Shown here: in pieces, positions 3,419-22,430 of the stretch
Position numbering within the stretch: the first letter of the stretch is position 1
How the letters are laid out: each line of letters opens with the position of its first letter
Source: Chromatiaceae bacterium
GTDB taxonomy: Bacteria > Pseudomonadota > Gammaproteobacteria > Chromatiales > Chromatiaceae
Direction of reading: 5' to 3'
DNA length: 64,000 bases
Assembly: GCA_013426805.1 (NCBI GenBank)
Contig: JACDZG010000026.1
Coordinates: 1-64,000, forward strand
Translations under genes and position numbers: made by a program
The notes under the pieces: model-generated
What the model was told of the DNA's origin: nothing
Database searches by the model: none
What the model saw: only the letters and a program-made list of their open reading frames with translations

Positions 3419-5953
3419 TCATCGCGGCGGATTCTCGATCAGTGTCCAGAGTCCGCGGTCCGGTTCCGCTAGGGCGGGTAAGCTATGGTGTTCATGCCGA
3501 GTTCGGTCGGACGCCTCGTTCTTTACGAACCATTTGTAGCTTTCCCCCACGGGTCCATGCTGCGAGTCTGTGCGGGGGTAATGAGTAGGTAGGTTGCTGC
3601 CCCGCGATGCATTGCGGAACGCCTTGACAATGGTCAGGTTATCGAAACCAGCTTTGGTTTCACCCAGTGCGCCTATCATTTCGGACTTGTAGGCACCAAT
3701 GACTAACCCAGCCTGCTGCACATCATCAATTCGTCGCCCCGCTTGCTGAGTTTCTGAAAAAGCACGGTAGTCCGCGGCAAGGGCTGCACCATCGCGCAGG
3801 TTCAGGTTCGTGATGCGAAGGTTCACGGAGCCGAACCCCAGAGGTTTACCGCCGCCGACCCGCAAATAACCCGCGGCGAGTTCTTCAAGAAGCCAAAGCA
3901 GTGCTCCAAGTTCCACGTCGCTGAGATTCGTTACCTCCATATCGAAGGCGAATCGAGACCCCGGCTCGATCCAGGCGGTGATGGATCGGTTCTGGTCCGT
4001 TTGCTCTTGGCCATGGCTCAACCATTCGCGGTAGACCCGGCGTCCGTTAAGAAGTTCGGGAAGAGGCTGCGTCACGTCCTTGGCAGGCATCCAGTACTCG
4101 GCTCGCTCAGCTTGACTCTGGTGAGGATAGACCTTGCGCCCACGTAGTCCTCCGCCGGGCCCGTAGCCTTCTTTCTTCTCGCCACCAGGCGGCAGTGGAT
4201 TTCCGCGCTCATTGCTGGCCGCATAGAAGCGGGCCTGGGCGGGCTTGGGCTGACCGAGAATGGCGAGCGGGATGCCTTGGCCCTGTTCAAGCACCTTAAC
4301 GGCTTTTGCACCGTCGAGGCAGGTCACTGCACCGATACGCAGTTGCCCCTTGAAACTGCCGTTACCTTTCTGATTGACCCAGCCGAACACGCGGTCTGCG
4401 GGTGACAGTTGGCTCCGTTCGACCGCTGGCGATAAGGTGTCGCTCAATAGTGTGAGCGGCGACTTTGAAAATAGCATCCGCGTTATCGACACGGGGTAGA
4501 GTTGAACTAGCCGAACCGGAATCCCGCTCGGGTTTGTTTCGATGCTTGCATAACACAGAGTGTCAACCCTCAACTGTTCTTCCCCTATACCGTAGACATG
4601 GCGGGAAAAACCCGTCTTACCGGGTTCATGCCCTAAGTAGTCTGAGGGTTGGATCTGTTTGCGACGACGATCCTCCAGTTCGTCCCGATGAATCGCACGG
4701 TAATCGTCGATGAGACGTTGCCAATTTCGTGAGTGATTGTCTTCGATAGGAAGGCATCTAGCCTTTGGAGTTACAAGAAACACACGCTCCTCATGCTTAT
4801 TCATGATGTTGCGTCCCGAAATGAAGACAATGCCGTCACTCCAACCCGCAGGACACGCTAGTCCCGGAGTAGCCCGTTGAATTTCCTCCACAGATAAGAA
4901 GGAGAACTTCCCGGATCTGTGTGGGTTACGGGTGATTCGAACGTAGACGAGGTCTCCATGGGACGGCAGGGTATTGTCAGGGTAGCGGCGTGCCTGTTGT
5001 CGCTCGTGCTTATCCGTAGCCGACGCCATGTGCGAATTGTACTTCCTGTAGCGCGGAAGCCAGGCCGCGTACATCAGGCAGTCTTCTCCTTGGCCTTTTG
5101 GTCTTCCATCCAAGCCGAACTCCGACAGCCCCGGCAATAGACGTGCTGCAAGAGCACCATTGGCTGCTGCGACAACCTGGCAGGGTACGAGCTTGACGCC
5201 CTCGGATGCGGGCATTCTTAGGGCAAGCAGTTTATCATGGGCTTCTAGTATACCCATCCGGCTGTTGGTAATCGCTTCATAGGCCACCCGTAGTGGCCCC
5301 TTGATGGTCGTCGGCGGAAGCACCGGCACCCGATGCTCATCCAACCGCAAGCCGAAGACTTTATGACCGTTGGGCTGCTCCACGCCAAGGTCGGGCACGA
5401 GCAGCGGAGTCTTGGTCGTTAGTTCGATGCGGATGCGTCCGCTCCAGCAGCCGGGATGGAAGCGATGATGACCAGACGGCGCCGCGTCCCCCAATTCCGC
5501 ATGGTCGCGGTCACGCGGCAGTGCAGGAATGAAATTGTAAGGATTCTCAAACTTGCCGTCTGGACCGGTGTTCTGCGAGCCCGCTTGCCTATTTTGTCCG
5601 CCGCCCCAGTCATTATTTCGGTGCGGCTCGCGCTTATTTCCTCCCGCCCCTGGACGACCCTTACCACCATCGCCCGCCGTTGGCCTCACCGGTGGGGGTT
5701 GCTCGCCCCGATCCCAGGTTTTTCCCGCAGTCCACACTCGCTGAATCTGCCCTTTGTCGAATAAGAACTCCACCAACGTCCCCTCCAGACCCTTCGGGGA
5801 CTTTTTGAAGACTGCGGCAAGTTCGGTGCAAAGTTTGGTCGCGTTAAGCGGCATTGGTTGGCTTCCGCTCCTCGTCGGCACGTCGATGTAGGCCTGCGGA
5901 CCGGTCTTGACTTGACGAACTTTGATCTCGCCCTTCATGGGTTCATCGCTCAT
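3419..5953 (-). CDS. Large CRISPR-associated RAMP protein, TIGR03986-like
   Basis: 844 residues. Residues 1-85 form a small N-terminal domain, 85-140 are a low-complexity Gly/Arg/Asn linker, and the RAMP (Cas7-type) domain begins near NPYNFIPALPR. Cas7-like features follow: LTTKTPLLVPD, VPVLPPTTIKGPLR (helix-capping Lys-Gly), and the glycine-rich loop GYLRVGGGKPLGFGSV near the C terminus. The layout and length match the TIGR03986 RAMP family typical of subtype III-D. It overlaps csx19 by 4 bp (ATGA). It should form part of the crRNA-binding backbone and may carry an RNA-cleaving acidic loop, but the catalytic Asp cannot be assigned by eye. Confidence 0.8.
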   Translation of the reverse strand: MSDEPMKGEIKVRQVKTGPQAYIDVPTRSGSQPMPLNATKLCTELAAVFKKSPKGLEGTLVEFLFDKGQIQRVWTAGKTWDRGEQPPPVRPTAGDGGKGRPGAGGNKREPHRNNDWGGGQNRQAGSQNTGPDGKFENPYNFIPALPRDRDHAELGDAAPSGHHRFHPGCWSGRIRIELTTKTPLLVPDLGVEQPNGHKVFGLRLDEHRVPVLPPTTIKGPLRVAYEAITNSRMGILEAHDKLLALRMPASEGVKLVPCQVVAAANGALAARLLPGLSEFGLDGRPKGQGEDCLMYAAWLPRYRKYNSHMASATDKHERQQARRYPDNTLPSHGDLVYVRITRNPHRSGKFSFLSVEEIQRATPGLACPAGWSDGIVFISGRNIMNKHEERVFLVTPKARCLPIEDNHSRNWQRLIDDYRAIHRDELEDRRRKQIQPSDYLGHEPGKTGFSRHVYGIGEEQLRVDTLCYASIETNPSGIPVRLVQLYPVSITRMLFSKSPLTLLSDTLSPAVERSQLSPADRVFGWVNQKGNGSFKGQLRIGAVTCLDGAKAVKVLEQGQGIPLAILGQPKPAQARFYAASNERGNPLPPGGEKKEGYGPGGGLRGRKVYPHQSQAERAEYWMPAKDVTQPLPELLNGRRVYREWLSHGQEQTDQNRSITAWIEPGSRFAFDMEVTNLSDVELGALLWLLEELAAGYLRVGGGKPLGFGSVNLRITNLNLRDGAALAADYRAFSETQQAGRRIDDVQQAGLVIGAYKSEMIGALGETKAGFDNLTIVKAFRNASRGSNLPTHYPRTDSQHGPVGESYKWFVKNEASDRTRHEHHSLPALAEPDRGLWTLIENPPR

Positions 5954-6462
5954 TGGGTGCCTCCAGTCTGGGTGCGCGCCAACACGCGCAGGATGCGGTG
6001 TTCCACCACGATCATGTTGCCGTCCTCGCCCGCCATTCCCGAGGCGGAACCGATGTACTCCCGAATCGTATAGCCGGCAACGTCGTCGGGCACATCCGCA
6101 CCCGGAAAGCCTTTAGCGTAACTCAGAATTGTGCCATCGATCGTTTCCAGTGCCCGAGAGTCCACCGGTTCGAAGCCCTTGGGTGTGTAGGCTAGTTCGC
6201 TGATCCAGCCTGCTCGGCCCTGACCTGTCGCAGCAGGATCGCGCAGCCAGCGTAGCTCGCCCTCCTCGCAGAACAGGCGTGCCTCGTAGACTTGGTCGAG
6301 TTTGAGGGGGCCGGCATCCTGCCCGTCCCAGGTGGCTAACCGCCAGGCGCGTGGGCTTTGCAGCAGACCGAGCAAGGACCGACCGGCGAAGGCGTCGGTC
6401 AGGCAGTGCGCAAGGGTTAAGTTCGCCCGCTGAAAGCGATAAAGGATGGTTTCGTCGTTCAT
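5950..6462 (-). CDS. csx19: CRISPR-associated protein Csx19 (TIGR03984-like)
   Basis: 170 residues, no membrane segment. The pattern LTDAFAGRSLLGLLQSPRAW, EARLFCEEGELRWLRD and YTIREYIGSAS matches the small III-D-specific Csx19 proteins, which bind RAMP subunits of the complex. The start overlaps the stop of the double-RAMP gene by 4 bp and its own stop overlaps the next gene by 4 bp, so the block is translationally coupled. Assignment rests on recognisable motifs plus position. Confidence 0.7.
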   Translation of the reverse strand: MNDETILYRFQRANLTLAHCLTDAFAGRSLLGLLQSPRAWRLATWDGQDAGPLKLDQVYEARLFCEEGELRWLRDPAATGQGRAGWISELAYTPKGFEPVDSRALETIDGTILSYAKGFPGADVPDDVAGYTIREYIGSASGMAGEDGNMIVVEHRILRVLARTQTGGTQ

Positions 6463-7958
6463 TGATCCGTCTCCGGGTCACCAACGTCCAGCCATGTCGT
6501 CCAGGCGGTGTTGAGAGCGGTCATCAGGTCGCGGATCGAATCGACATCGATCTCGCCGCTGGTGACCTTCAAGTCAACCGCGTCCGTCGTCGCGCCCAAG
6601 GAGCAGAGTCCGTTCATTTTGATTGCGCTCACCTCCAAATCTCCATAGCCGCGGTTGACACCATAGCCAAGGGGAATCCGACCGGCGCAGAAGTCACGCA
6701 GGGTGAGCCACAGGAGCGCCAGTTCCGCATGGGGCTGACCCTCCGTGTCCACATGCAGCACCAGGGGTGCCCAGGTCACGCCCATGGGCTCCGCGGCACT
6801 GAACAGCCGTGAATCCGCAGCCCCTCCGGTCCAGCGGTCGACGGCCACGTGCATCGCGCGGGCCATCGGTCGCTGCTGACTTGGTGGTCCAAGCCAGTCG
6901 GTCTCGGACCGATCAAGCGTATCCCAACGCTCCTGCGGCAAGGCGAACTCGGCGTAGCAGGTCTCGAACCCCAGGCGGCCTTTGCCGCGTTCGGCTTGTT
7001 TGGTTTTTCCGCGCTTCGGGTCCTCGGGCCGGGCACGCCCAAAGAGGTCGCCTGCCAGCGGAATATTTACCTGATCGCCGTGCTGTTGCGGGATAGCGTC
7101 GATCCCACGGACGGTACGGACGATGCGCTCCGCATGAGAACGCCAGGCGCCCTTGATGCCGGCACCGGGGAGGGTCAAGGCGAATTGACCGTCTTCCTGC
7201 CGACTGACAAAGGGCAGACCGTCTACAACGACGCCGTCGCGGGCTGAGCGACTCATCAACGGACCTTTGGGCTGCCAGTGGATTTCGATACGCAGGCGTT
7301 GGCGTATTGGGGCCGTATACCGAGTGCGCTGGGCTTGCCAGGCGACACGTTGGTCTGCGGCATCCGCGCCCCCAAGCCAAGCAAAGATCCCCTCGGGGGT
7401 CGCCCAGTCGCGCTCGTTGCAGCGTGCCGCGGCGAGCTTAACCCTGCCGAAACCGCGAGTTCCAGCCGCACCGAGGACCAACTCTCCTGCCGTGAGGGCA
7501 TCGACCAGCCATGCGAGGAAGCCACGCTTCTCGTCCACATCCTGTCCCTCGACAACCTCCACGGTGAGCCGGAACGCGAAGGCTGTACCCTTGGGCAGCA
7601 CCTCGCGGTCGTATTTGATGCCGTCAGCGGCGGTTCCCCAGCGCCGGTCGATCCCGTTGCCGTGCCATAATTCCGGGTAGGCCTCACTCAGTACCGGGGC
7701 GTCGTCGACGATGACGTGGGAGGCATTGCCTTGGTCTTCGCCCATGGCGAAACCCCACACCGGGTCCTCGTCCAGCGCTCGACAGAAGGCTCGAATCGCG
7801 CCGCCAAGCGAGGTGCCAGGGAGGTAGTAACGTCCGAGCCCATCAATCGCCAAAGGCATATCCGTGATGCCGTCGTTCTCAGCGCCACCCACATGCAACG
7901 GGGTCAGACTGTTCAGGCAGCCAGCAATCGTTAGGGTATGGGTGATCTTACGCGCCAT
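6459..7958 (-). CDS. Double Cas7 (Csm3-like) RAMP protein
   Basis: 499 residues from the ATG at 7958 (MARKITHTLTI); an upstream ATG adds 13 residues and would deepen the overlap. Two RAMP domains are visible. The first (1-210) has LTPLHVGGAENDGI, YYLPGTSLGGAIRAF and the Gly-rich loop LVLGAAGTRGFGRV. The second (225-499) has PLMSRSARDGV, LPGAGIKGAWRSH and IPLGYGVNRGYGDLEV. Fused Cas7 repeats are typical of III-D and lie on the path to the type III-E single-protein effector. It overlaps the preceding gene by 11 bp. Confidence 0.8.
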   Translation of the reverse strand: MARKITHTLTIAGCLNSLTPLHVGGAENDGITDMPLAIDGLGRYYLPGTSLGGAIRAFCRALDEDPVWGFAMGEDQGNASHVIVDDAPVLSEAYPELWHGNGIDRRWGTAADGIKYDREVLPKGTAFAFRLTVEVVEGQDVDEKRGFLAWLVDALTAGELVLGAAGTRGFGRVKLAAARCNERDWATPEGIFAWLGGADAADQRVAWQAQRTRYTAPIRQRLRIEIHWQPKGPLMSRSARDGVVVDGLPFVSRQEDGQFALTLPGAGIKGAWRSHAERIVRTVRGIDAIPQQHGDQVNIPLAGDLFGRARPEDPKRGKTKQAERGKGRLGFETCYAEFALPQERWDTLDRSETDWLGPPSQQRPMARAMHVAVDRWTGGAADSRLFSAAEPMGVTWAPLVLHVDTEGQPHAELALLWLTLRDFCAGRIPLGYGVNRGYGDLEVSAIKMNGLCSLGATTDAVDLKVTSGEIDVDSIRDLMTALNTAWTTWLDVGDPETDQ

Positions 7959-10269
7959 GACCTGACTCCTGGGGTTTCTCGCGGTTGTCCGGCGCACGGT
8001 TGTTCTCGTTCAACTGCGCGGAAATCGCAGTGAGCCAGAGAGTCTTCACGGCCTCGACGCGCATTTCTTGGGTCAACGCCTCCTGATCATGCCCGGGGAG
8101 GGCCAGCGGCCCCGTGACTAGGTCGAGTGTCCCCCAGATAGTCGTCGAGTCGGCGTCCAAGTGCTGCTGGAGTCGGGCCTGTGTGGCCTCTGGCCATTTA
8201 ACGCTCCGCGTTTTCGTGCGCTGCACGGCAGCGAGCCAAGCGGCTATGCGCTCCAGCCCGGTCTGGTCATGCGCCGATTCCATCAGCGCACGCAAGGCGC
8301 CGAGTTGGGTATTGGGCGGGAGGGACGAGGCTCCGCTCGTCCAGCCCAGATCGCGCCGGAACGAGTGCGCACGCTCCGCGGCCTTGCGGCGAATCGCAAG
8401 CCGCGCCGCACGGCGCTGCACCGCCCGCGAAAAGTCTGTTACCGTAGCGTTTCCCGTCGCCTCTGCTACAGGTCGGTCAAGGTTCAGTGCACGGCAGATA
8501 ACATCCGGGTTGGCCAACAGGGGCGTGTTGAAACGCAGTTCGCCATAGCCTTCACCCCGGCGTTCGCCGAGTCCGTTGGCCTGAACGCGAGCGAGTGTCC
8601 GCGGATCGAGTGAGCCGTGCACAGCGAAAGATACGCACGACCCCGCGGCAATTCCGAAGCGGGTGGCGCGGCGCATCTGCCAGGCGTTGTTCCAACCCTC
8701 GTCTCGCCATGGCCGCAGAAAGACACCTTGATGATCCCGGCGGGGTTGCAGCCCCGCCGACCCGAGTCCGAGGGCCACTCCAAGCTGTTCGGCTAAGCCA
8801 GCGACATCCGTTACGGGCGCCAATGCCGCATCGCGCAGCAGGAGCGGCGAAACCAGCCACACCGTGAGGCTCTCCGGGTCCGTGTCGGGCACCGGCGGTT
8901 TGATCTCTCGGTAAGCAGCTATGGCAACTTGACCATAATCGTCTTTCTTGGCTCGACCGATGCGCAAGACTTGCTCAGGCGCGCCATCCAGCCAATCCTT
9001 GAACTTCGTGTCATCGGCACAGAGCGCGCGGCTGATCCACAACTCGGCCATCAAACGCTGACCGGGACGGATGGCCTGATAGGTGAAGACACCGCCGACG
9101 GCCCCCGTGGGCCGCTGGGTCTCATCGGCAATGGTGGCGTGGGTCACCGCGATGGTGTCCACCTTCGCGACTCGCCCCGGAACCTCGAACACCGCATCCG
9201 CGGCCACGTATCCAGCCCTTAACTGCTTGCGTTGGCGCTTGTCGGGGGCCTCGTCCTTGAGTTGATTGATGGTTTCCTCATCCTCTTTGAGTTTGAACAA
9301 CGAGGCGGGCACGGGTAGGAGCCGCTGTTGATTCGCCGAGGGGTAGGCGTTCCGGACCTGCACCGCCCCGCTCGCGAGGGCGCTGGTGGTCTGGTCAGCG
9401 AGCAGACCGCGCAACCAGACGTCGAGGGCGGGCAGTAGCAGTGATCCGGGGATGTGATCCTGAGTCGTAACCACGTTACCAAGGGTTTCTGCCGGAACGA
9501 TGACCGGGTAGTTCAGATCGAGGTCCAAGGCGATGACGCGCCACTGCCCCCCGTCGCCGGGAATCACGGCAGGATCTGTCAGCATGTGCGCACGATCCGG
9601 CTCGGCCATTGCGGTCGACGGGGGCGTGCTCTTGAGAAGCTCAATCAGCTGTCCCGCGTTCGCCCAGCCCACCAGCTTTAGGGTGCAGCGTCCGTTGCCA
9701 CGTCGGCGTTTGGCTCCGAGGCGCTCGACCGCCTGCGCTCCTGCCGTGAGCAACGCCAAGGCGCAATCGCGCCGCGCGCCGGTGAGTTGGTTCAGAGTCA
9801 GTGGGGCGTGTAACTGCGCCCCCGCCAATACGACTTCCTCGAAGCGCAACATCTGCGATTGGGCGACCCCCTGCGTGTCCAGCTTGACACCGGGTTTGAT
9901 AAAGACCAAGGCTTCGGTCATCCCGTCGGTATCGAGAATGCCCTTCCGCAGGTCCCCCGGCAGTCGCGCAGCGCCGACGGTGAGGCGCGCGGTCCGCGCC
10001 ATTCGGTCGACTTTATCCTCTTGATTGCTGCCGAACACTTCCCGTAGCAGGGTGTGCCAGTGGCCATCTTCCTGACCCGCGTCGAGTCCGTAGGCCACCC
10101 GCTCGCAGCCGTCCCGCAGGATACCGGTCAGGGTTTTCGCTGGGACATAAGGTAGGCCGTCCGTGGGGTGTCGGCGTACGATGGCATCGATCTGGCCGCG
10201 TGCGCCGGCCCCTTCCCCAACGTGCCAATCGGAAAGGAACTGCAGGTGCAGTGTCAGCGCGTCACTCAT
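7948..10269 (-). CDS. csx10: Cas7-Csx10 (Cas5-group) fusion RAMP protein
   Basis: 773 residues from the ATG at 10269. The N-terminal 250 residues form a Cas7-like RAMP (FLSDWHVGEGAG, LPYVPAKTLTGILRDG, glycine-rich AKRRRGNGRC). From about 250 the sequence reads as Csx10: IVPAETLGNV, PGSLLLPALDVWLRGLL, GAVGGVFTYQAI, LRIGRAKKDDYGQVAI, then a second glycine-rich loop GLGERRGEGYGEL near 610. The last 150 residues are basic and helical. Csx10 caps the 5' end of the crRNA in III-D complexes; fusing it to a Cas7 fixes the first backbone subunit. It overlaps cas10 by 8 bp. Confidence 0.75.
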   Translation of the reverse strand: MSDALTLHLQFLSDWHVGEGAGARGQIDAIVRRHPTDGLPYVPAKTLTGILRDGCERVAYGLDAGQEDGHWHTLLREVFGSNQEDKVDRMARTARLTVGAARLPGDLRKGILDTDGMTEALVFIKPGVKLDTQGVAQSQMLRFEEVVLAGAQLHAPLTLNQLTGARRDCALALLTAGAQAVERLGAKRRRGNGRCTLKLVGWANAGQLIELLKSTPPSTAMAEPDRAHMLTDPAVIPGDGGQWRVIALDLDLNYPVIVPAETLGNVVTTQDHIPGSLLLPALDVWLRGLLADQTTSALASGAVQVRNAYPSANQQRLLPVPASLFKLKEDEETINQLKDEAPDKRQRKQLRAGYVAADAVFEVPGRVAKVDTIAVTHATIADETQRPTGAVGGVFTYQAIRPGQRLMAELWISRALCADDTKFKDWLDGAPEQVLRIGRAKKDDYGQVAIAAYREIKPPVPDTDPESLTVWLVSPLLLRDAALAPVTDVAGLAEQLGVALGLGSAGLQPRRDHQGVFLRPWRDEGWNNAWQMRRATRFGIAAGSCVSFAVHGSLDPRTLARVQANGLGERRGEGYGELRFNTPLLANPDVICRALNLDRPVAEATGNATVTDFSRAVQRRAARLAIRRKAAERAHSFRRDLGWTSGASSLPPNTQLGALRALMESAHDQTGLERIAAWLAAVQRTKTRSVKWPEATQARLQQHLDADSTTIWGTLDLVTGPLALPGHDQEALTQEMRVEAVKTLWLTAISAQLNENNRAPDNREKPQESGHGA

Positions 10270-12010
10270 GATCGTCCTCCTGCGTGGTTGCGCTCGATCC
10301 GGTGGTTGCGTGGTCCGGATCGGGCCAAAACCCAGCCCCATTGATGGCGTCGATGAAGCGCGTGGACCACTCCCCGTCGCGCTGGGTGAAGAGCGAATCC
10401 GCAGTTTCGATCAAGTCCTTCAGGCCATTCGTATCGAGCCAGCGCAAGTCCCGCAGTCGCGCGTCGCCGTAGGCCTTGCCTTGAGCCACCGCTTGGCGCA
10501 ATGCGTGCATCTGACTGCTGGGAAGTCTGGCGCGTCCGGTGATGGGGTCTTCGGCGTTGAACGCGGCAAAACGCGTCGCCAGATGGTCGAAGTGATGCGC
10601 GGTGGCCCAGGTTCTGCCAACCTCGGAGGTCTCATCCAGTTGATCGAGTGGTGTCACAACGTAGGGGCCGCCATATAGCCGTTGCTTAACCCTTTGGCTG
10701 TTCGTTTTGTCACAGGTCACAGGCGCCAGAGTCGTCATTCGTTGACTCCGAATCGACTCCAGGTCGGTGTAGGAGGCGTCAAACAGTACATGGAAATCCA
10801 AGGCTGAGGCCGGGAATGGCGCCGGCAAGTCCGCCGCTGAGGTGGTCGCGGGGATCTGTCGCTTGACCTTCTTGGCGGACTTCAACAACTGCTCGGCCAG
10901 TCCATAGGCCAGGTGGAAGGGAAAGTGATGCTTGACCAAGGCTACACCCGCGGCAGCCGATAGGCGCGGTGCCCCGAGGGCAACCTTGGCAACGCGTGCG
11001 ATGGTCTCGCACTTGGCCGTCTCCTCCTCGAAAGCGCGCAGGAAAGTCTTGGCAAAAGGTAGGGCGTACTCGCCTTCGACGAGAACGGTCAGGTCATCGC
11101 CGGCCAAAACCAGGGGGATGACTGGCACATAGATGCACTTGGCGCCGTGGCGTCGTAACGGAGCTTGATAGGCGCGCGATGCGCCGAGCCAGTGAATGTG
11201 CTCACAGGCAGCGTAGAATGCCCGTTCCGTCGCTCCCTGCAACTCATCGGAGATCGCTTTCATTGCTTCGAAGACTCTTGGTTTGGGCTTGCCGCTATTT
11301 GGTAGATTCCCCAGATGGGTCGCTAGATCCAGGAAGATCTGGCCTAACCCGTTGCCGTCCGCGTGCACTACGCCGAGCCATTGCGTATCGTCGAAAAACC
11401 GTTGAAGACGATCAATGTCGTGGGCAATGAAGAACTGCTGCCCCCCAAGATCTGCACCCTGAAATTTCAATCGGCTCTCAATGTAACGGCTCCAGTCCCG
11501 CGCCGCCTGTTGCTTCGCGATGGACTCGGCGGATAGCGCATGTCGCTGATCTCCCGTGCTTTCCCACCCCGTTGCCGGCGACCCAGAGGTCGCACAGGGT
11601 TGTGTCCAAGGGAGTACCGGGGCGCGGATCAATCCCATCGCATCGCGATTGGCATTGAATCGTTTATGAACTTTGTCAAGCGCGTCGGCGGGGTCATCCC
11701 CGAGGTCAACGACAGCTCCGGTGACCTGAAGCCCTGGGGCTTCCCTAAGCGCCCGCCGGGTGACGCTTCTGACAAGCGCTATGCCATCCTGGCGCGTGGG
11801 CACCTGGATCAGCGCTTTTCCGGAGGTTGCTAAAACCACCCCCTGTTGGTCGGGTGCCGCATCATGCGCCCACTGTCCCACCATGCGGGTGATCTGGGAC
11901 GCTCCGACGTTCTCCTTAAGCTTGTTGGTCTTGTACAGGTAGTGCTGATTGCCGGAGGTCTCGATCAACACGAGAGCCTGATACGCGTCGCCTTTGGAAT
12001 CGCAGTTCAT
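10262..12010 (-). CDS. cas10: Cas10, HD-less, with an AGDD palm motif (type III-D)
   Basis: 582 residues, shorter than a full Cas10. There is no N-terminal HD nuclease: the protein opens directly in a palm-like segment (HYLYKTNKLKENVGASQ, 23-39). Palm motifs follow: VVHADGNGLGQIF (214-226) with a metal-binding Asp, and VLAGDDLTVLVEG (301-313), where the usual GGDD is AGDD. Both Asp residues are kept, so cyclic oligoadenylate synthesis is plausible while ssDNA cleavage should be absent. The ATG overlaps the stop of the broken CARF gene (ATGA). Together with Csx10 and Csx19 it defines subtype III-D. Confidence 0.85.
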   Translation of the reverse strand: MNCDSKGDAYQALVLIETSGNQHYLYKTNKLKENVGASQITRMVGQWAHDAAPDQQGVVLATSGKALIQVPTRQDGIALVRSVTRRALREAPGLQVTGAVVDLGDDPADALDKVHKRFNANRDAMGLIRAPVLPWTQPCATSGSPATGWESTGDQRHALSAESIAKQQAARDWSRYIESRLKFQGADLGGQQFFIAHDIDRLQRFFDDTQWLGVVHADGNGLGQIFLDLATHLGNLPNSGKPKPRVFEAMKAISDELQGATERAFYAACEHIHWLGASRAYQAPLRRHGAKCIYVPVIPLVLAGDDLTVLVEGEYALPFAKTFLRAFEEETAKCETIARVAKVALGAPRLSAAAGVALVKHHFPFHLAYGLAEQLLKSAKKVKRQIPATTSAADLPAPFPASALDFHVLFDASYTDLESIRSQRMTTLAPVTCDKTNSQRVKQRLYGGPYVVTPLDQLDETSEVGRTWATAHHFDHLATRFAAFNAEDPITGRARLPSSQMHALRQAVAQGKAYGDARLRDLRWLDTNGLKDLIETADSLFTQRDGEWSTRFIDAINGAGFWPDPDHATTGSSATTQEDDHE

Positions 12011-12898
12011 CTTGTCGTTGTTTCCTTGTCGTCCAAATTAGGCAAAGCCGGTCCGCGGTTGACAAATTGAATCTGCCCCGCCCCCAACCCCACCCCCACC
12101 CCATACCCTCGCGGCTTGCCGCCCCCCTCGATCTGATAGGGCTTGCGCCCCAGACCCAGTGCGGCGCGCAGCTTGCCGTTCAAGCGGGACTTGACCTCCA
12201 TGAAGAAGGCCGCGTCCATGCCGTCGGCCAGGCGCGCGGCGGTGCGCTCGTCATCCCCCATCTCGCCGAGCACGGCGCGGTATTCGGCGAGGTACTCAAC
12301 CGCATAGCCGGGCTCCGGGTAGCCGTCCACCGGGCAGCGCAGGGGCGGGTCGCCGCAGCGGCGACGCCGGGCGAACCAGCCGATGAAGGCGAGTTGGGGG
12401 CGGCCGCCGCACCTCGCGGCCGGCGGCGCGGATCAGCCGGCCGGGGTAGTCAATGGTCTTGCGCCCGCCGGCGATCAAGGCATGGAGTACGGTCGTAGGG
12501 TCGGCGGTGAAACGGCGCACCAGTTCGGTGAGTTGGTCGGCCGCCTGGTCGTTGTCGGCCGGGGTGCGGATATCGGACAGCGGCGTTCCCGCGGCGTCCT
12601 CCAGAACATGGATATGGGACTCGGTGAAAGCGATGGGCGGCAGCCCGTAGTCGGCGATCAGCCGCCCGAACCACGCCAAGTCCGCCGAGAGCAGGCTGTG
12701 GCGGGCGCGCTCCGCGCCCTCGACAGTGGTGACGAGGTGGACCTCGGTCGGCACCCAGGGGATGGGTGCGGCCACCGCGAGGGCGTGTAGGCTTTCGGTC
12801 ACGATCTGCGGGGAGAGCCCGGTAGCCGCGAACAGAATGCGTCGCTGGGGTGTGTCCTCGTCCATTGTCCCGGTCCTCGACTTGTCATTGTCGGACAT
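12007..12898 (-). pseudogene. Broken CARF gene (Csm6/NE0113 family)
   Basis: The 5' part (ATG 12898) encodes a CARF domain: ILFAATGLSPQIVTESLHAL, PTEVHLVTTVEGAERAR, DIRTPADNDQAADQL and LHALIAGGRKT. The sequence expected after GGRKT in this family (strand-helix pairs, roughly 80 residues) is missing. The frame then shifts by one within about 12380-12450; the other frame continues LAFIGWFARRRRCGDPPLRC, PDPxYA-like PEPGYAVEYLAEYR, SRLNGKLRAALG and ends YGVGVGLGAGQIQFV, matching the family C terminus. A deletion and a frameshift therefore inactivate it. The family includes ring nucleases and sensor-regulators of type III systems. Confidence 0.7.
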
Positions 12899-13138
12899 CG
12901 TGAATCTTACCTCATTGCGGCTGGTGAAATGCAAGTGGGCGTGGTGCCGCGCCGGTGAAAGCCTGTCCGGTCAACGTTCGGAAGCAGGCGTCCCGTGTTG
13001 GCGCGGCCCGGTGTTTCTGCATTGGCAGCTTGCGCGTGGGCGGCGCCGGTGTCCGGGATCACAAGCTTGTCGTACCCCCGCGGCCCTGCCGGATGGCTTC
13101 ACCATGGCTCCGTCACTCAACCGATGGAGACCAACCCC

Positions 13139-14010
13139 ATGCCCCTGACCGGCTTTTTTCGTATCACCTGGACCGTTCAACTCGCGGTGGGCGTGGCGCT
13201 CTTTGGCGTCTCGTTCTGGACCGGCCGAACCTGGCGCAGGTCCGCGCTGCCGAGCTGGCCGCCATCGACACCCGGCTGGCCGCCGACCTGTAGCGGCTCG
13301 ACGCCCGGCAGGCGGCTAAGGTGCAAGCTGAAACCGACCGCCGCGACGCCGAACTGACCGCGGCCCGCGCGCTCCACCAGCGCCAGGTCGATGCATTGGA
13401 GACCCTGCTGCGTGCCGAGATGGACCGTGTCGTCGGCGGGGTCTTCAAAGGTCCGCGATATCAGGAGTTGGAGCGGCGCCTGGAGGCCGCCCGTGCGGCC
13501 AGTGAGTCCGCACTCGCCGTGCTGGCCGAGCGCCACCGGCGTGAAGCCGCGGAGGCTGCTGCCCGGGCCGATCACCTCGCCACGGCACGCCAGGCCCTGC
13601 ATACCGAGGCCGATGCACGGCGCCGCGCCGTGCGTGAGTCGCGCTTCGACCAGGACGACCGCACCCATAACCCGCTGGTCATCACCCTGATCCGCCTGGC
13701 CGCGGATGTGTTCGATCGGACGGTGACCGCGCCCCAGTTTGCTTTCGCCTTGGCCCTCTTTCTCAGCGTCCTGGTCGAGTTGGGCATCGTGCTCGCGTTC
13801 GACACCATCACGCTGGCGGTCATCCCCGCCCTGGCCGCGCAGCATCGGGAGGCGGTCCTCGAAGAGGCGCTGGCTGCCGAAGTGGAAGGGGCGGCCGTCC
13901 GTGATGCGATGCGTCACCGCGAGGCCATGGACCGCGTGCGCCAGGGTGCCGACCGGGTGCCCGAGCGTGCTCAGGCACACATCAGTGAGGGGGTGGAGCG
14001 GCGCCAATAA
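13139..14010 (+). pseudogene. TM/coiled-coil protein, frameshifted and with an in-frame stop
   Basis: An ATG at 13139 opens MPLTGFFRITWTVQLAVGVA, a TM helix (FGVSFWTG). Near 13225-13240 the frame shifts by one to AQVRAAELAAIDTRLAADL, which ends in TAG at 13291-13293 and then resumes in the same frame (RLDARQAAKVQAETDRR) for 229 codons: a long coiled coil, a hydrophobic span AFALALFLSVLVELGIVLAF and a charged tail. A single ancestral gene is the simplest reading. It starts divergently from the CARF gene and runs toward cas2. A shorter protein could still be made from the GTG at 13321. Function unknown; possibly a membrane component of the adaptation or defence locus. Confidence 0.55.
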
Positions 14011-14039
14011 TCGCGTCGGCCGCGGGTCCGCGCCGCGGC

Positions 14040-14432
14040 TTGGAGCATTGTTCCGGCCGGCGGCGCTCGGTCCGCACAGCGGACCCTACGGTCTGGTACC
14101 TGATCGCCTATGCCGTGCGCGACGCCAAGCGTCTGCGCAAGGTCCACTATTACCTGCGCAAACAGGCGCTGGCGGTGCAGAAATCGGTCTTCATCATCCA
14201 CGCCGACCTGGAGACTCTGGCCGCCGTCCAAGACGGATTGCGCCGGCGGGTGGTGGAGCGTGACGACGACCTGCGCCTGTACGCCATCCCCGGTCCGGCG
14301 TCGCTCTGGGCCGCCGGCCAGCAGGCGCGGCGGCTGGCCGGGCCTTATGGCGGCGATACCGACACCCAGGGCGCCCGTCCGGGCCGTCTGCGGCGTTGGT
14401 TCAAGGGCCTGTTCGCCCAGGAGGCCGCATGA
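14040..14432 (+). CDS. cas2: Cas2, with a disturbed 5' end
   Basis: The core WYLIAYAVRDAKRLRKVHYYL is unmistakably Cas2, followed by VQKSVFIIHADLE and DDDLRLYAIP. Only a TTG (14040) is available as a start, giving 18 non-conserved residues; the region just before the conserved WYLI is a dispersed hairpin repeat (14069-14085) that seems to have replaced the native start. The first conserved Asp of the family (YD in strand 1, the metal ligand) is Ala here (YAV). Cas2 is structural in the Cas1-Cas2 integrase, so loss of the Asp alone need not inactivate it. The C terminus is extended by about 35 residues. The stop overlaps the cas1 start (ATGA). Confidence 0.8.
   Translation: MEHCSGRRRSVRTADPTVWYLIAYAVRDAKRLRKVHYYLRKQALAVQKSVFIIHADLETLAAVQDGLRRRVVERDDDLRLYAIPGPASLWAAGQQARRLAGPYGGDTDTQGARPGRLRRWFKGLFAQEAA
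14069..14085. repeat. Short dispersed hairpin GGTCCGC-N3-GCGGACC inside the cas2 5' end
   Basis: A 7-bp stem with a 3-base loop, followed by CTAC. The same string including the trailing CTAC occurs at 21328-21348. Here it replaces the sequence where the cas2 start codon should be. Confidence 0.7.
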
Positions 14433-15457
14433 TCCTCGTCGTCGATCACCGCGATTGCACCCTGCGGCATGAGAACGGCTGCGTGCGGGTGGAGCAGGCG
14501 GGCGAGAAGCCGCGCCGTGCCCCCATCGCCCAGCTCGAATTGGTGGTGGTGTACGGCAACCCTCTGGCCGAGACCGCCCTGTGGCGGGCACTCGCCAGTG
14601 CCGGCGTGCCCACCGTCATGCTGCCCGCGCGCGGCCAGTCGCCGGAGCGCAACGGCCCCGCCGTGCTCGCCGGCGGCATCGCCACGCAACTGCCGCTACG
14701 CCGGCTCCAGCACAGCCGCGCCGCCGACCCTGCCGCCGCGCTGCACCTCGCCCGCTGGTGTCTGCGCCACAAGCTTCAGGGCTACGATCTGCCGCTCATC
14801 GCCCTGGCGGCGCACCACGGCGCCGCCCCGGCGGTCTGCGCGGCCTTTCGTCAACGTCGTGACCAGGCCCTGACCGCGCTGGCCGCCGCCACCGATCTGG
14901 ACACGGCGCTGGGCGTCGAGGGTCAGATCGCCCATGCCTGGTTCGGCCTGCTCGCCCAGGTCATCAACCCCGCCTGGAACTTTACCGGCCGCAACCGCCG
15001 CCCGCCGCGCGACCCGGTCAACGCCTTGCTGTCACTCGGCTACACCCTGGTCGGCACCGAGATCCATCAGGGCGTCATGGCCCTGGGACTGGACCCCTCG
15101 CTCGGGTTCCTGCACCAGCCGGTCCCCGGCCGCGAGTCCATGGTGTTGGACCTCACCGAGATCTTCCGGTGCGGGGTGGACCATTTCGTCCTGGGATGGC
15201 TGCCACCCGCCGGGCCGCGGCAGACCGACTGGTACTACCGCGACACCGAAGGCTGTCGTCTCAGCAAGGCCGCCCGCCCCGGCTTCTTCGAAGCCTGGTC
15301 CTTGGTCCGCGGCCGCTGGCCCTATCCGCTGGGCGATGCCGCGCAGCCCGAATGGCCGCACGGCACCCTGCGCGAACAAATCCATGGCTGGATCGAACGC
15401 CTGCGTGCCGAGATGAAGGCCATAGACCTTGGCCCAACCGCAGCCGCATCGGAGTGA
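14429..15457 (+). CDS. cas1: Cas1 integrase
   Basis: 342 residues from the ATG at 14429, which overlaps the cas2 stop by 4 bp. The N-terminal beta domain (MILVVDHRDCTLRH) is followed by the helical domain with all three metal ligands: E164 (GVEGQIAHAWF), H229 (LGFLHQPVPG) and D241 (MVLDLTEIF). Cas1 inserts new spacers with Cas2. This copy appears intact although its partners cas2 and the downstream reverse transcriptase look damaged. It lies divergent from the interference operon, in a separate adaptation transcript. Confidence 0.9.
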   Translation: MILVVDHRDCTLRHENGCVRVEQAGEKPRRAPIAQLELVVVYGNPLAETALWRALASAGVPTVMLPARGQSPERNGPAVLAGGIATQLPLRRLQHSRAADPAAALHLARWCLRHKLQGYDLPLIALAAHHGAAPAVCAAFRQRRDQALTALAAATDLDTALGVEGQIAHAWFGLLAQVINPAWNFTGRNRRPPRDPVNALLSLGYTLVGTEIHQGVMALGLDPSLGFLHQPVPGRESMVLDLTEIFRCGVDHFVLGWLPPAGPRQTDWYYRDTEGCRLSKAARPGFFEAWSLVRGRWPYPLGDAAQPEWPHGTLREQIHGWIERLRAEMKAIDLGPTAAASE

Positions 15458-15462
15458 CGACC

Positions 15463-16372
15463 ATGAAAACCAGCCTGCTCGACCAAGCCATGGCCCCGGA
15501 CGCCCTCAATCAGGCTTGGCGCCGGCTCAAGACCGAGCACACCCCCCTGGAGCCCCGCGATCCCCCGCGAGGAACTCCAGCACAATCTCATGCGCCATCT
15601 GCTGGAGTGCCGCCAAGAGGTCCTGGACGGCGGCTACCGCCCGCTGCCGTTGCGCCAATTCCCCATGCCGAAACCAGACGGTCGAATCCGCGTCATCACC
15701 GCCTAGTATCTCAAGGACAAACTGGTCCAGCGGGCGATCCTCACCGTGCTGGAACCCCGCGCCGAGCGCCTTTTCCACGACGACAGCTATGCCTATCGAC
15801 CCGGCCGCAACGTCGAACAGGCCCTCGCCAAGGTCCGTGAACGCATCCGCATCGGCCAGGACTGGCTGGTGGATGCCGACATCGAAAAATTTTTCGACTC
15901 GATTCCACATCGGCCGCTGCTCAGGGTGCTGGACGACTTCATCGCTGATCGCAGCGCCATGCAACTCATCGCCCGCTGGCTGGACCAGGGCGCCCATGTG
16001 AAAAGCCTGCTCAGCACCCCGCGCGGTATCGCCCAAGGGGCCATCTTTTCACCACTCTTCTGCAATCTCTATCTGCACGGTTTCGACACCGCGTTGGACC
16101 GCGCCAAGTGCGGCTTCGTCCGTTTCGCCGACGATTTTCTCATCTTCGCCGTCACCGCCGAGCAAGCCGAAAAGGCCCGCGCCTTCGCCGCCCGCGAACT
16201 CGACCGCTTGGGACTGACCATCCATCCGGAGAAAACCCGTGTCGTCCGCAGCAGTCCTGAGGTCATCTTCCTCGGCGAAACACTGCCGAACCCTGGTGCG
16301 GTGTCCTTGAAGGCGCAAGGCCGTCCTGCCCCTAGGCGTGTCCCGGACCGGCACCCGCGCGGCAGGCGCTGA
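15463..16372 (+). pseudogene. CRISPR-associated reverse transcriptase, disrupted
   Basis: The ATG at 15463 is 3 bp after the cas1 stop region and encodes MKTSLLDQAMAPDALNQAWR; near 15555 the frame shifts by one to IPREELQHNLMRHLLECRQE and MPKPDGRIRVITA, then a TAG at 15704-15706 interrupts what reads on as YLKDKLVQRAILTVLEPR. Reverse-transcriptase motifs follow in that frame: YAYRPGRNVEQAL, ADIEKFFDSIPH (first catalytic Asp), TPRGIAQGAIFSPLFCN and FVRFADDFLIF (catalytic DD). It resembles the RT paired with Cas1 in type III systems that acquire spacers from RNA, but a frameshift and a nonsense codon should abolish it. Readthrough of the 3' ORF from an internal start would lack the fingers. Confidence 0.75.
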
Positions 16373-16503: not shown

Positions 16504-16540
16504 GTCCGACACCCATACCTGATGAAGAAGGTATTGAGAC
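16504..16540. CRISPR. Single orphan CRISPR-like repeat
   Basis: 37 bases ending in ATTGAGAC, the classic 3' handle of many type I/III repeats, with an internal 6-bp palindrome (atacct at 16515-16520, aggtat at 16529-16534). It lies 130 bp after the reverse transcriptase remnant, exactly where an array is expected beside cas1. Only one unit is present, so there is no array in this window; it may be the last repeat of a lost array. Orientation cannot be proven, but the ATTGAGAC end suggests the plus strand. Confidence 0.55.
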
Positions 16541-16792: not shown

Positions 16793-17622
16793 ATGTGCGA
16801 CCTGCTCGACCCCAAGAACGACTATGTATTCAAGCGTCTGTTCGCCGACGCCCCGGACCTGCTGGTGGCGCTGATCAATGCCGTGCGCCGGTGCGCGGCG
16901 CCGATCACGCACCTCGCGGTCAAAAATCCAACCATTGATGCCGCGGAATTGCACGGCAAATACATCATTCTGGACCTGCTGGCTGAAGACGCGGCAGGCC
17001 GTAGGATGCGGTGAGGCACGAACCGCATCACTCCCCGCGTGACCTGCGATGCGGTTCGTGCCTCACCGCATCCTACGGTGAACTTCAGCCGGCCATCGGC
17101 ATCCATCTGCTCGACTTTGATTTGTTCCAAGACCTGGCCCACCAGGATCAAGCCCTGTGGTGTTTCGAGATGCGCGATGCCGCGCGCCCGACGGTGACCC
17201 TGGGTCAGGAACTGCAGCTCAACCTGATCGAACTGCGCAAGGCCGATCGGCTCCAACAGACAGCGGGCGCACTCGGCGCCTGGATCACACTCTTTGAACA
17301 CTGGCAGGAGGAAGACACCATGGCGCAGATCGTCGACCCACCGGTGCGCGCCGCGCTGGACAAACGCAAGACCCTGAGCGCCGACGCCGAGGCCCGGCGC
17401 CCGGCCTTCGTGCGCGAGCGGGCATTGCGTGACGAGCGCAGCTTACTCAAGGATGCGTGGGAAGAAGGTCGCGAGGAAGGTCTGGAGGCGGGTCGTGAGG
17501 AAGGTCGGGCCGCCTTGCGCCTGACGGCAATCAATCTGATCCGCGGCACCGACCTGAGCGATGCGGCCATCGCCGCGATCACCGGACTCGGCGTCGATGA
17601 ACTCGCCGCGCTGCGGCGGTGA
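16793..17622 (+). pseudogene. Rpn-family nuclease/transposase-like gene interrupted by a palindromic element
   Basis: The 5' part (ATG 16793) reads MCDLLDPKNDYVFKRLFAD, LLVALINAV, AVKNPTIDAAELHGKYIILD: the N terminus of Rpn/PD-(D/E)XK transposase-like proteins with the first catalytic carboxylates. It stops at 17014 inside an 80-bp inverted repeat. The 3' part resumes in another frame with PAIGIHLLDFDLFQD, LIELRKADRL and a helical tail with GREEGLEAGREEGRAAL, ending at 17622. About 40-50 residues holding the central nuclease strands appear to have been replaced by the element. Confidence 0.75.
16999..17078. repeat. Perfect 30-bp inverted repeat with a 20-base loop
   Basis: Arms at 16999-17028 and 17049-17078 are exact reverse complements (ccgtaggatgcggtgaggca...). 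The element sits inside the Rpn gene and carries the stop codon of its 5' part. A 25-base half-copy occurs at 18351-18375. Confidence 0.9.
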
Positions 17623-18080: not shown

Positions 18081-18575
18081 ATGCGCGGGATTCGTTTCGT
18101 CCCGGACGCCTGGGATGCGTACCTTTATTGGCAACAGCAGGATCGCAAGACGCTAAGACGCATCAACCTCCTGATCAATGAGACCGTCCGCGCGCCATTC
18201 GCCGGGATCGGCAAACCCGAACCGCTACGCGGCAATCTATCGGGCTACTGGTCGCGGCGCATTGACGACACCCATCGCCTGGTCTACCGTGCGACCGACA
18301 CCGAGTTGGTCATCATCGCCTGTCGGTTTCATTACGACTTCGCCACCCGTGTTCGTGCCTCACCGCATCCTACGGCACACGGCATGATGCGGCGTGCGGG
18401 CAGCGCGGCGCACCATCGCGGCCGGAGGCCGCTCCCACGGGGGCTTTCAGGTCCCCGCGGGCGTCCTCAATCGGCCTGGAAGCCGGTGATCTCACTGGTC
18501 CGCCCCCGGCCGTGCAGCGCGCGCAGGATGTCTTTGAGCGGTCGGGTGCGGGTCTCGCGCGGGACGCAGAAATAG
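18081..18575 (+). CDS. yoeB: YoeB-type mRNA interferase toxin with an aberrant C-terminal extension
   Basis: The first 86 residues are a complete Yoe[73 protein letters not shown], with the usual catalytic Glu, Arg and C-terminal His. YoeB normally ends at about -CRFHY. Here the frame continues for nearly 80 codons because a half-copy of the palindromic element at 16999 (18351-18375) has replaced the native stop. The tail is Arg/Pro-rich and not conserved. The start at 18081 overlaps or abuts the yefM stop. In YoeB the C-terminal His-Tyr lies in the active site, so the extension may impair the toxin. Confidence 0.8.
18351..18375. repeat. Half-copy of the 30-bp inverted-repeat element
   Basis: 25 bases (gttcgtgcctcaccgcatcc...) identical to 17054-17078. 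Only one arm is present, at the point where the yoeB reading frame loses similarity to its family. Confidence 0.9.
18418..18432. repeat. REP-like hairpin between yoeB and the CNP1-like gene
   Basis: Stem gcggcc / ggccgc around gga, followed by gctcccac, a common dispersed string in gammaproteobacterial genomes. It lies just past the 3' end of the minus-strand CNP1-like gene and inside the yoeB extension. Confidence 0.6.
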
Positions 18576-22335: not shown

Positions 22336-22430
22336 ATAGAAGCGTCCAACGCGATAACCGGATGTAGGGGCGGGTTTCAAACCCGCCCCTACGCCGAGGC
22401 CAGGTCCGGATATCAGGTGCGAAGGCTATA
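22336..22430. repeat. Miniature inverted-repeat element, copy B
   Basis: Same plan as 1650-1743: terminal repeats (atagaagcgtcc...gataaccgga and ...tccggatatcagg...gctata) around ggggcgggtttcaaacccgc. The two copies differ by point changes in the flanks of the hairpin. It lies 47 bp upstream of the ypfJ start. Confidence 0.75.

Follow-up and report, generated by a model that had tools for sequence, protein, structure and literature searches.

Introduction

Acquisition modules that contain a reverse transcriptase (RT) are described in the main text of Silas 2017 (PMC5513706) as autonomous, horizontally spreading units that combine with several type III kinds of CRISPR system. In the same text, an RT-Cas1 fusion was shown to permit acquisition from RNA. 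Decayed RT modules are not described among the titles and abstract openings of the literature covered here.

We analysed a window of 64,000 nucleotides (bases 1-64000 of contig C195) from a draft genome of 7.6 Mb in 349 contigs. A first-pass annotation, made from the sequence alone, had proposed true decay of an RT-containing acquisition module around an intact cas1. We conclude with high confidence that the window contains a type III-D effector set and, next to it, a pseudogenised RT-containing module for spacer acquisition, with its array probably collapsed and acquisition probably dead. The proposal of decay is supported by two intact relatives without the lesions, by deletions and by the loss of the array.

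Results

Intact relatives of the module

The window Cas1 was searched against 194 genomes of the same family, drawn from a larger group. Two close orthologues were found, with 66% (genome G032, loci L007/L037) and 61% identity (genome G123, loci L008/L038). The next group was near 45%, and a metagenome contig (L036) encoded a Cas1 that was 50% identical. No close intact module was found among the seven other genomes of the same genus in the sample, four of which had Cas1 matches at 34-37% only and three none at E 1e-30.

In both L037 and L038 the order was a TM/coiled-coil gene, a small coiled-coil gene (about 185 aa), cas2A (94 aa), cas2B (about 113 aa), cas1, RT and an array, the repeats of which end ACCTGATGAAGAAGGTATTGAGAC. 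The TM/coiled-coil gene was one frame (373 aa in L037; 365 aa in L038 from the homologous ATG), as was the RT, and the Cas2 aspartate was present. The comparison with orthologous loci that had been suggested as a check on decay thus yielded two whole counterparts. Gene order and homology to L037 and L038 indicate common descent of the window module with intact modules of the RT-associated type III kind. The effector neighbours differed: III-B genes lay beside L037 (Cmr1, Cas10/Cmr2) and L038 (Cmr4, Cmr5, Cmr6), and III-D genes in the window, which agrees with module exchange among type III systems.

Across 13 homologous loci (L036-L048), a tandem cas2 pair was present in 10 (L036-L044 and L047). 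Genome G178 had both cas2 genes divided between two contigs (L046, L086), L045 had cas2B only, and L048 had neither within the available stretch. Five of the 13 loci gave no RT match (L039-L042, L045), among which L039 is uninformative, as its sequence stops 443 bases past cas1. The two different cas2 genes in tandem before cas1 are thus shared with relatives in which no RT was matched. Among titles and abstract openings, neither tandem cas2 genes nor such accessory genes were described, and in the relevant passages of PMC8102632 and PMC9048733 "two Cas2" refers to a single Cas2 present as two chains or monomers.

The TM gene and the 185-aa gene occurred together in L037, L038, L043, L044 and L086; L036 contained the 185-aa gene and too little upstream sequence to show a TM gene. 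Members of the 185-aa family (L037 9080-9634, L038 7024-7575, L036 518-1069, L044 10269-10868, L043 4011-4556) share the motif CN..LVTGK, in which CN and LVTGK are invariant. The family was detected in 6 of the 194 genomes; in the sixth, G030, the gene stood at a contig end and the next gene was unrelated by eye. Neither the 185-aa nor the TM protein had a match over cut-off in Pfam or NCBIfam or below E 0.01 in PADLOC. The weak matches were DUF6175 (E 0.0045), HEPN_SAV_6107 (0.037) and PADLOC LeoBC (0.038) for the former and DrmD (0.041) for the latter. The small coiled-coil protein was not detected in 398 genomes searched phylum-wide, a sample without a positive control, or in the plasmids searched. 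In L036 (1075-1842) and L047 (3942-4697) cas2A was preceded by a different protein, which by eye looks coiled-coil-like and has a signal-like N terminus.

Lesions in the TM/coiled-coil gene and cas2

The TM/coiled-coil gene remnant (13139..14010, + strand) opens with ATG at 13139, changes frame near 13216 and contains a TAG at 13291-13293. It had been annotated with a frameshift and a TAG. The TAG stands, at a position that is Gln in L038 and Arg in L037, whereas the supposed frameshift is, in the alignment, a deletion of 229 nt against both relatives.

A deletion scar (14011..14091, + strand) follows, at which about 1.1 kb is missing compared with L037 and about 1.0 kb compared with L038. The small coiled-coil gene, cas2A and the beginning of cas2B are gone with it. 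This deletion (14010-14091), with the loss of two whole genes, had been overlooked. A genome-wide search for the small coiled-coil protein found nothing at E<=0.001, while the same family was detected in six other genomes. A palindromic repeat, GGTCCGCACAGCGGACCCTACGG, occupies 14069-14091 (+ strand) and abuts the cas2B remnant. It had 268 matches in the genome at <=2 mismatches and none for the reversed control, and 22 of its bases occur six times exactly in L037, which belongs to another genus. The repeat may have given rise to the gap or filled it afterwards. When the junction stretch was folded as DNA, it did not surpass shuffles (z -0.44), with a 7-bp stem visible in the centroid.

In cas2B (14091..14432, + strand), homology to Cas2 sets in near 14091-14094 and the native start is gone; the mechanically called frame opens at TTG 14040, and the remainder is open. 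The strand-1 Asp is Ala, in contrast to Asp in 10 of 10 other aligned Cas2 sequences. Loss of both the native start and this residue had been recognised correctly. With the other cas2 deleted, the module encodes no intact Cas2.

Lesions in the RT gene and the array remnant

The RT gene remnant (15463..16372, + strand) adjoins cas1 and is 75% identical to that of L038. It opens with ATG at 15463 and retains the FADD motif. Two lesions break it, as first described: a frameshift, which the alignment places as a net +1 in the six-C run at 15542-15547, and a TAG at 15704-15706. The ten other RT-like matches listed for the genome were free of internal stops. The TAG stands at a Gln codon of the relatives (CAG in L037, CAA in L038). 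This position, like that of the TM gene stop, might suggest that programmed frameshifting and stop readthrough still yield full proteins, a possibility raised at the outset against decay. The sites are absent from both intact relatives, and recoding can restore neither the 229-nt deletion nor the lost genes and array; the CARF gene is broken too. We therefore regard recoding as exceedingly improbable.

About 100 nt without counterpart follow the RT, and then a region that aligns with the leader of L038 (16423..16503, approximate limits, + strand). A single CRISPR repeat (16504..16540, + strand), overlooked before, lies where L038 has an array with a 21-copy repeat family and L037 one with 14 to 15 copies. 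Its 23-nt core occurs once in the whole 7.6-Mb genome at <=3 mismatches, and 24 nt taken from the repeat of the relatives matched once in the window and in none of 100 shuffles. Leader homology and one repeat are what is left of an adjacent leader and array. An array that has never gained a spacer would have the same appearance, one repeat by a leader. Since the intact relatives both have arrays of at least 14 copies in this place and the acquisition genes of the window are broken, such a naive array is unlikely, and we favour a collapsed one.

The type III-D effector genes

The effector set (3419..12010, − strand) was unbroken and is transcribed in the order Cas10 (10262-12010), Cas5-like (7948-10341), Cas7-like (6459-7997), Csx19 (5950-6462) and TIGR03986 RAMP (3419-5953). 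Csx19 and the TIGR03986 protein scored above the curated NCBIfam cut-offs. The Cas7- and Cas5-like proteins were under theirs, yet matched the PADLOC III-D models. Cas10 scored 27.9 with NCBIfam Cmr2, under the cut-off of 79.4, and 312 bits with the PADLOC Cas10 model. Cas10, Csx19 and the III-D RAMP proteins of a type III-D effector are thus all encoded in the window. The five genes were colinear with L072 in the alignment, at 55-62% identity, over near-complete length and without breaks (from position 3419 upwards, 842/844, 160/170, 501/512, 778/797 and 569/582 residues aligned). An 82-nt direct repeat (83% identical; 1662-1743 and 22349-22430, 20.7 kb apart) flanks the CRISPR region, and a perfect 25-nt direct repeat occurs at 17054-17078 and 18351-18375, with a spacing of 1.3 kb.

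The first-pass annotation had found no defects in nearby core genes. This holds for the five effector genes. An exception is the CARF gene next to them (NE0113/Csm6-like; approximately 12091 to 12934, − strand), in which the N part (12296-12934) and the C part lie in different frames. Residues 20-210 and 282-393 of the L047 CARF protein were matched in two frames, and about 70 residues are gone. A CARF partner is common, though not strictly defining, for a type III-D effector; the one beside this effector is broken. Long open CARF frames (374-405 aa) were observed in L040, L045 and L047, and shortened ones in three genomes (window, L038, L037). The CARF gene on the L038 side (L038 3872-4321) also lacks the middle, and on the L037 side (near L037 4564-4809) the match is confined to the first 70-82 residues. 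Because both were shortened although the acquisition modules are intact, the loss of CARF is independent of the loss of the module. The CARF gene of contig C40 (L052) was considered as another internally deleted copy and rejected, as most of the gene could be aligned once a longer query was used.

Decay or artefact

All module genes except cas1 were lost or broken and one repeat was left, while the five effector genes were unbroken. Five lesions fell in 3.2 kb of module compared with none in 8.6 kb of effector genes (0.0015 if evenly spread), in regions picked after the lesions had been seen and with the broken CARF gene in between excluded. Sequencing or assembly errors might imitate such decay: the +1 lies in a homopolymer and, taken alone, could be a sequencing error, and the draft consists of 349 contigs, four ends of which lie in a common repeat. 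There are, however, also two deletions, the replacement of Asp by Ala and a lost array, and the neighbouring 8.6 kb is lesion-free. The 229-nt and approximately 1-kb deletions and the array loss cannot be base-call errors, so that a corrected sequence restoring the open frames, which the first-pass annotation had left room for, is very improbable. The assembly of this genome does contain arrays, of 136, 33 and 17 copies, so the absent array does not reflect a general assembly failure. We consider it very improbable that errors account for the lesions.

cas1 and the age of the decay

The cas1 gene (14429..15457, + strand) is one open frame. E164, H229 and E244, which we take to be the Glu, His and Glu/Asp metal ligands of Cas1 proteins, were invariant in 8 of 8 aligned Cas1 sequences; the earlier statement that the window Cas1 has all three is borne out. 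The window Cas1 thus has the catalytic ligands of an RT-associated type III adaptation module, and none of the five Cas1 matches of the genome contained an internal stop.

Codon changes private to the window were counted at codons identical in L037 and L038 and compared with the pooled other branches, the comparison being limited to these two intact loci, the Cas1 proteins of which are 66 and 61% identical to that of the window. Nonsynonymous to synonymous changes were 18:26 for cas1 (relatives 43:71, p=0.72; no excess), 12:6 for cas2B (12:18, p=0.14), 6:31 for the longer RT piece (p=0.62), 16:11 for the TM piece (p=0.35) and 3:5 for the short RT piece. No significant difference was found for the four pieces tested (cas1, cas2B, longer RT, TM). 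The broken RT still looks constrained, which means that its lesions are recent; as neither the RT nor the cas1 pieces show relaxed selection, the decay as a whole must be recent.

The open frame, the ligands and the codon counts of cas1 would also be expected if selection kept it as the partner of a Cas2 encoded elsewhere and the other module genes decayed, and another cas2 exists on contig C201. The equally constrained counts of the broken RT indicate, however, that the measure shows only recency. Moreover, cas1 would escape random lesions by chance in about 15% of cases for five lesions, or 15-22% for four to five, and its repeat has one copy and no larger array. Selective maintenance of cas1 is therefore improbable, and special retention was rejected for want of statistical support. 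Given how often cas1 would escape by chance, its intactness is not read as retained function, and may be mere chance survival in a recently decayed module.

A second RT module in the genome

Contig C94 (L084) encodes Cas10, a Csm4/Cas5-like, a Cas7-like and a Csm3-like protein and a CorA-like gene, and a frame running off its start (L084 1-1660) has a Cas6 match and an RT match. Contig C201 (L050) opens, on the coding strand, with a single frame that joins an RT end to a Cas1 domain (L050 11368-13173), followed by cas2 (TIGR01573, above cut-off) and 33 repeats. No end overlap was found between C94 and C201. Each leads into one and the same 20-nt sequence, the two copies being oppositely oriented, and the flanks share CTCA. 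The 20-nt sequence occurs four times in the genome (C62, C94, C109, C201), each time within 50 bases of a contig end. Such an arrangement would result if an insertion element, itself unassembled, sat in the RT motif of this Cas6-RT-Cas1 module, as seems to be the case.

Discussion

By analogy with described RT modules, the intact module would reverse-transcribe RNA and write the product into its own array via Cas1-Cas2. In the window, recombination between repeats would have collapsed the array, one repeat remaining, and a deletion with the genome-wide palindromic repeat at its edge would have removed the accessory gene and the first cas2. Small lesions would have been added, at whatever stage. 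This locus has probably ceased to acquire spacers, and an active III-D effector would have to draw crRNAs from the other arrays of the genome.

Decay of CRISPR genes is in itself ordinary. The window shows in good resolution how an RT acquisition module can die next to a type III effector that stays whole. Since the other RT module looks interrupted too, RNA-derived spacer acquisition may be lost from this genome entirely, with array-based immunity kept.

The comparison also reveals an accessory set, namely the tandem cas2 genes, the TM/coiled-coil protein and the LVTGK protein, and two of these are non-Cas proteins without a family model. The intact parent module is more interesting than its ruin. 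We tentatively hypothesize that it is a distinct RT acquisition module, with two different Cas2 homologues in tandem, Cas1 and a stand-alone RT, in which the membrane coiled-coil and LVTGK proteins might build a complex, tethered to the membrane, from which RNA-derived DNA passes to an integrase with two kinds of Cas2; this is a possible reading to which we give somewhat less than even credence. If it is true, the window is a natural record of part-by-part loss.

Comparison with known systems

The effector genes resemble known type III-D CRISPR effectors in their Csx19 and TIGR03986 matches over the curated cut-offs, and the window locus differs in having one repeat only as an array and a broken CARF gene. 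Cas6-RT-Cas1 and RT-Cas1 fusions, such as the Thiomicrospira complex treated in passages of PMC8102632, likewise unite Cas1, Cas2 and RT in one acquisition unit. In contrast, the RT and Cas1 of the window are separate, and the fused-type gene of this genome is the one split over C94/C201.

A further likeness is to RT-associated type III modules with a separate RT and Cas1, as presented in the main text of PMC5513706 and in parts of PMC6013744 (Toro 2018): an RT by cas1/cas2, an array, and a type III effector nearby. The words "cas2" and "coiled" do not occur in the main text of the former, nor "coiled" and "membrane" in the text covered of the latter. Two differences set our loci apart from these modules. 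The window module is broken, and the intact form in L037 and L038 adds a second cas2, the TM/coiled-coil gene and the 185-aa coiled-coil gene. In the window, a module of a known kind has recently fallen into ruin, and its intact parent is of unusual composition.
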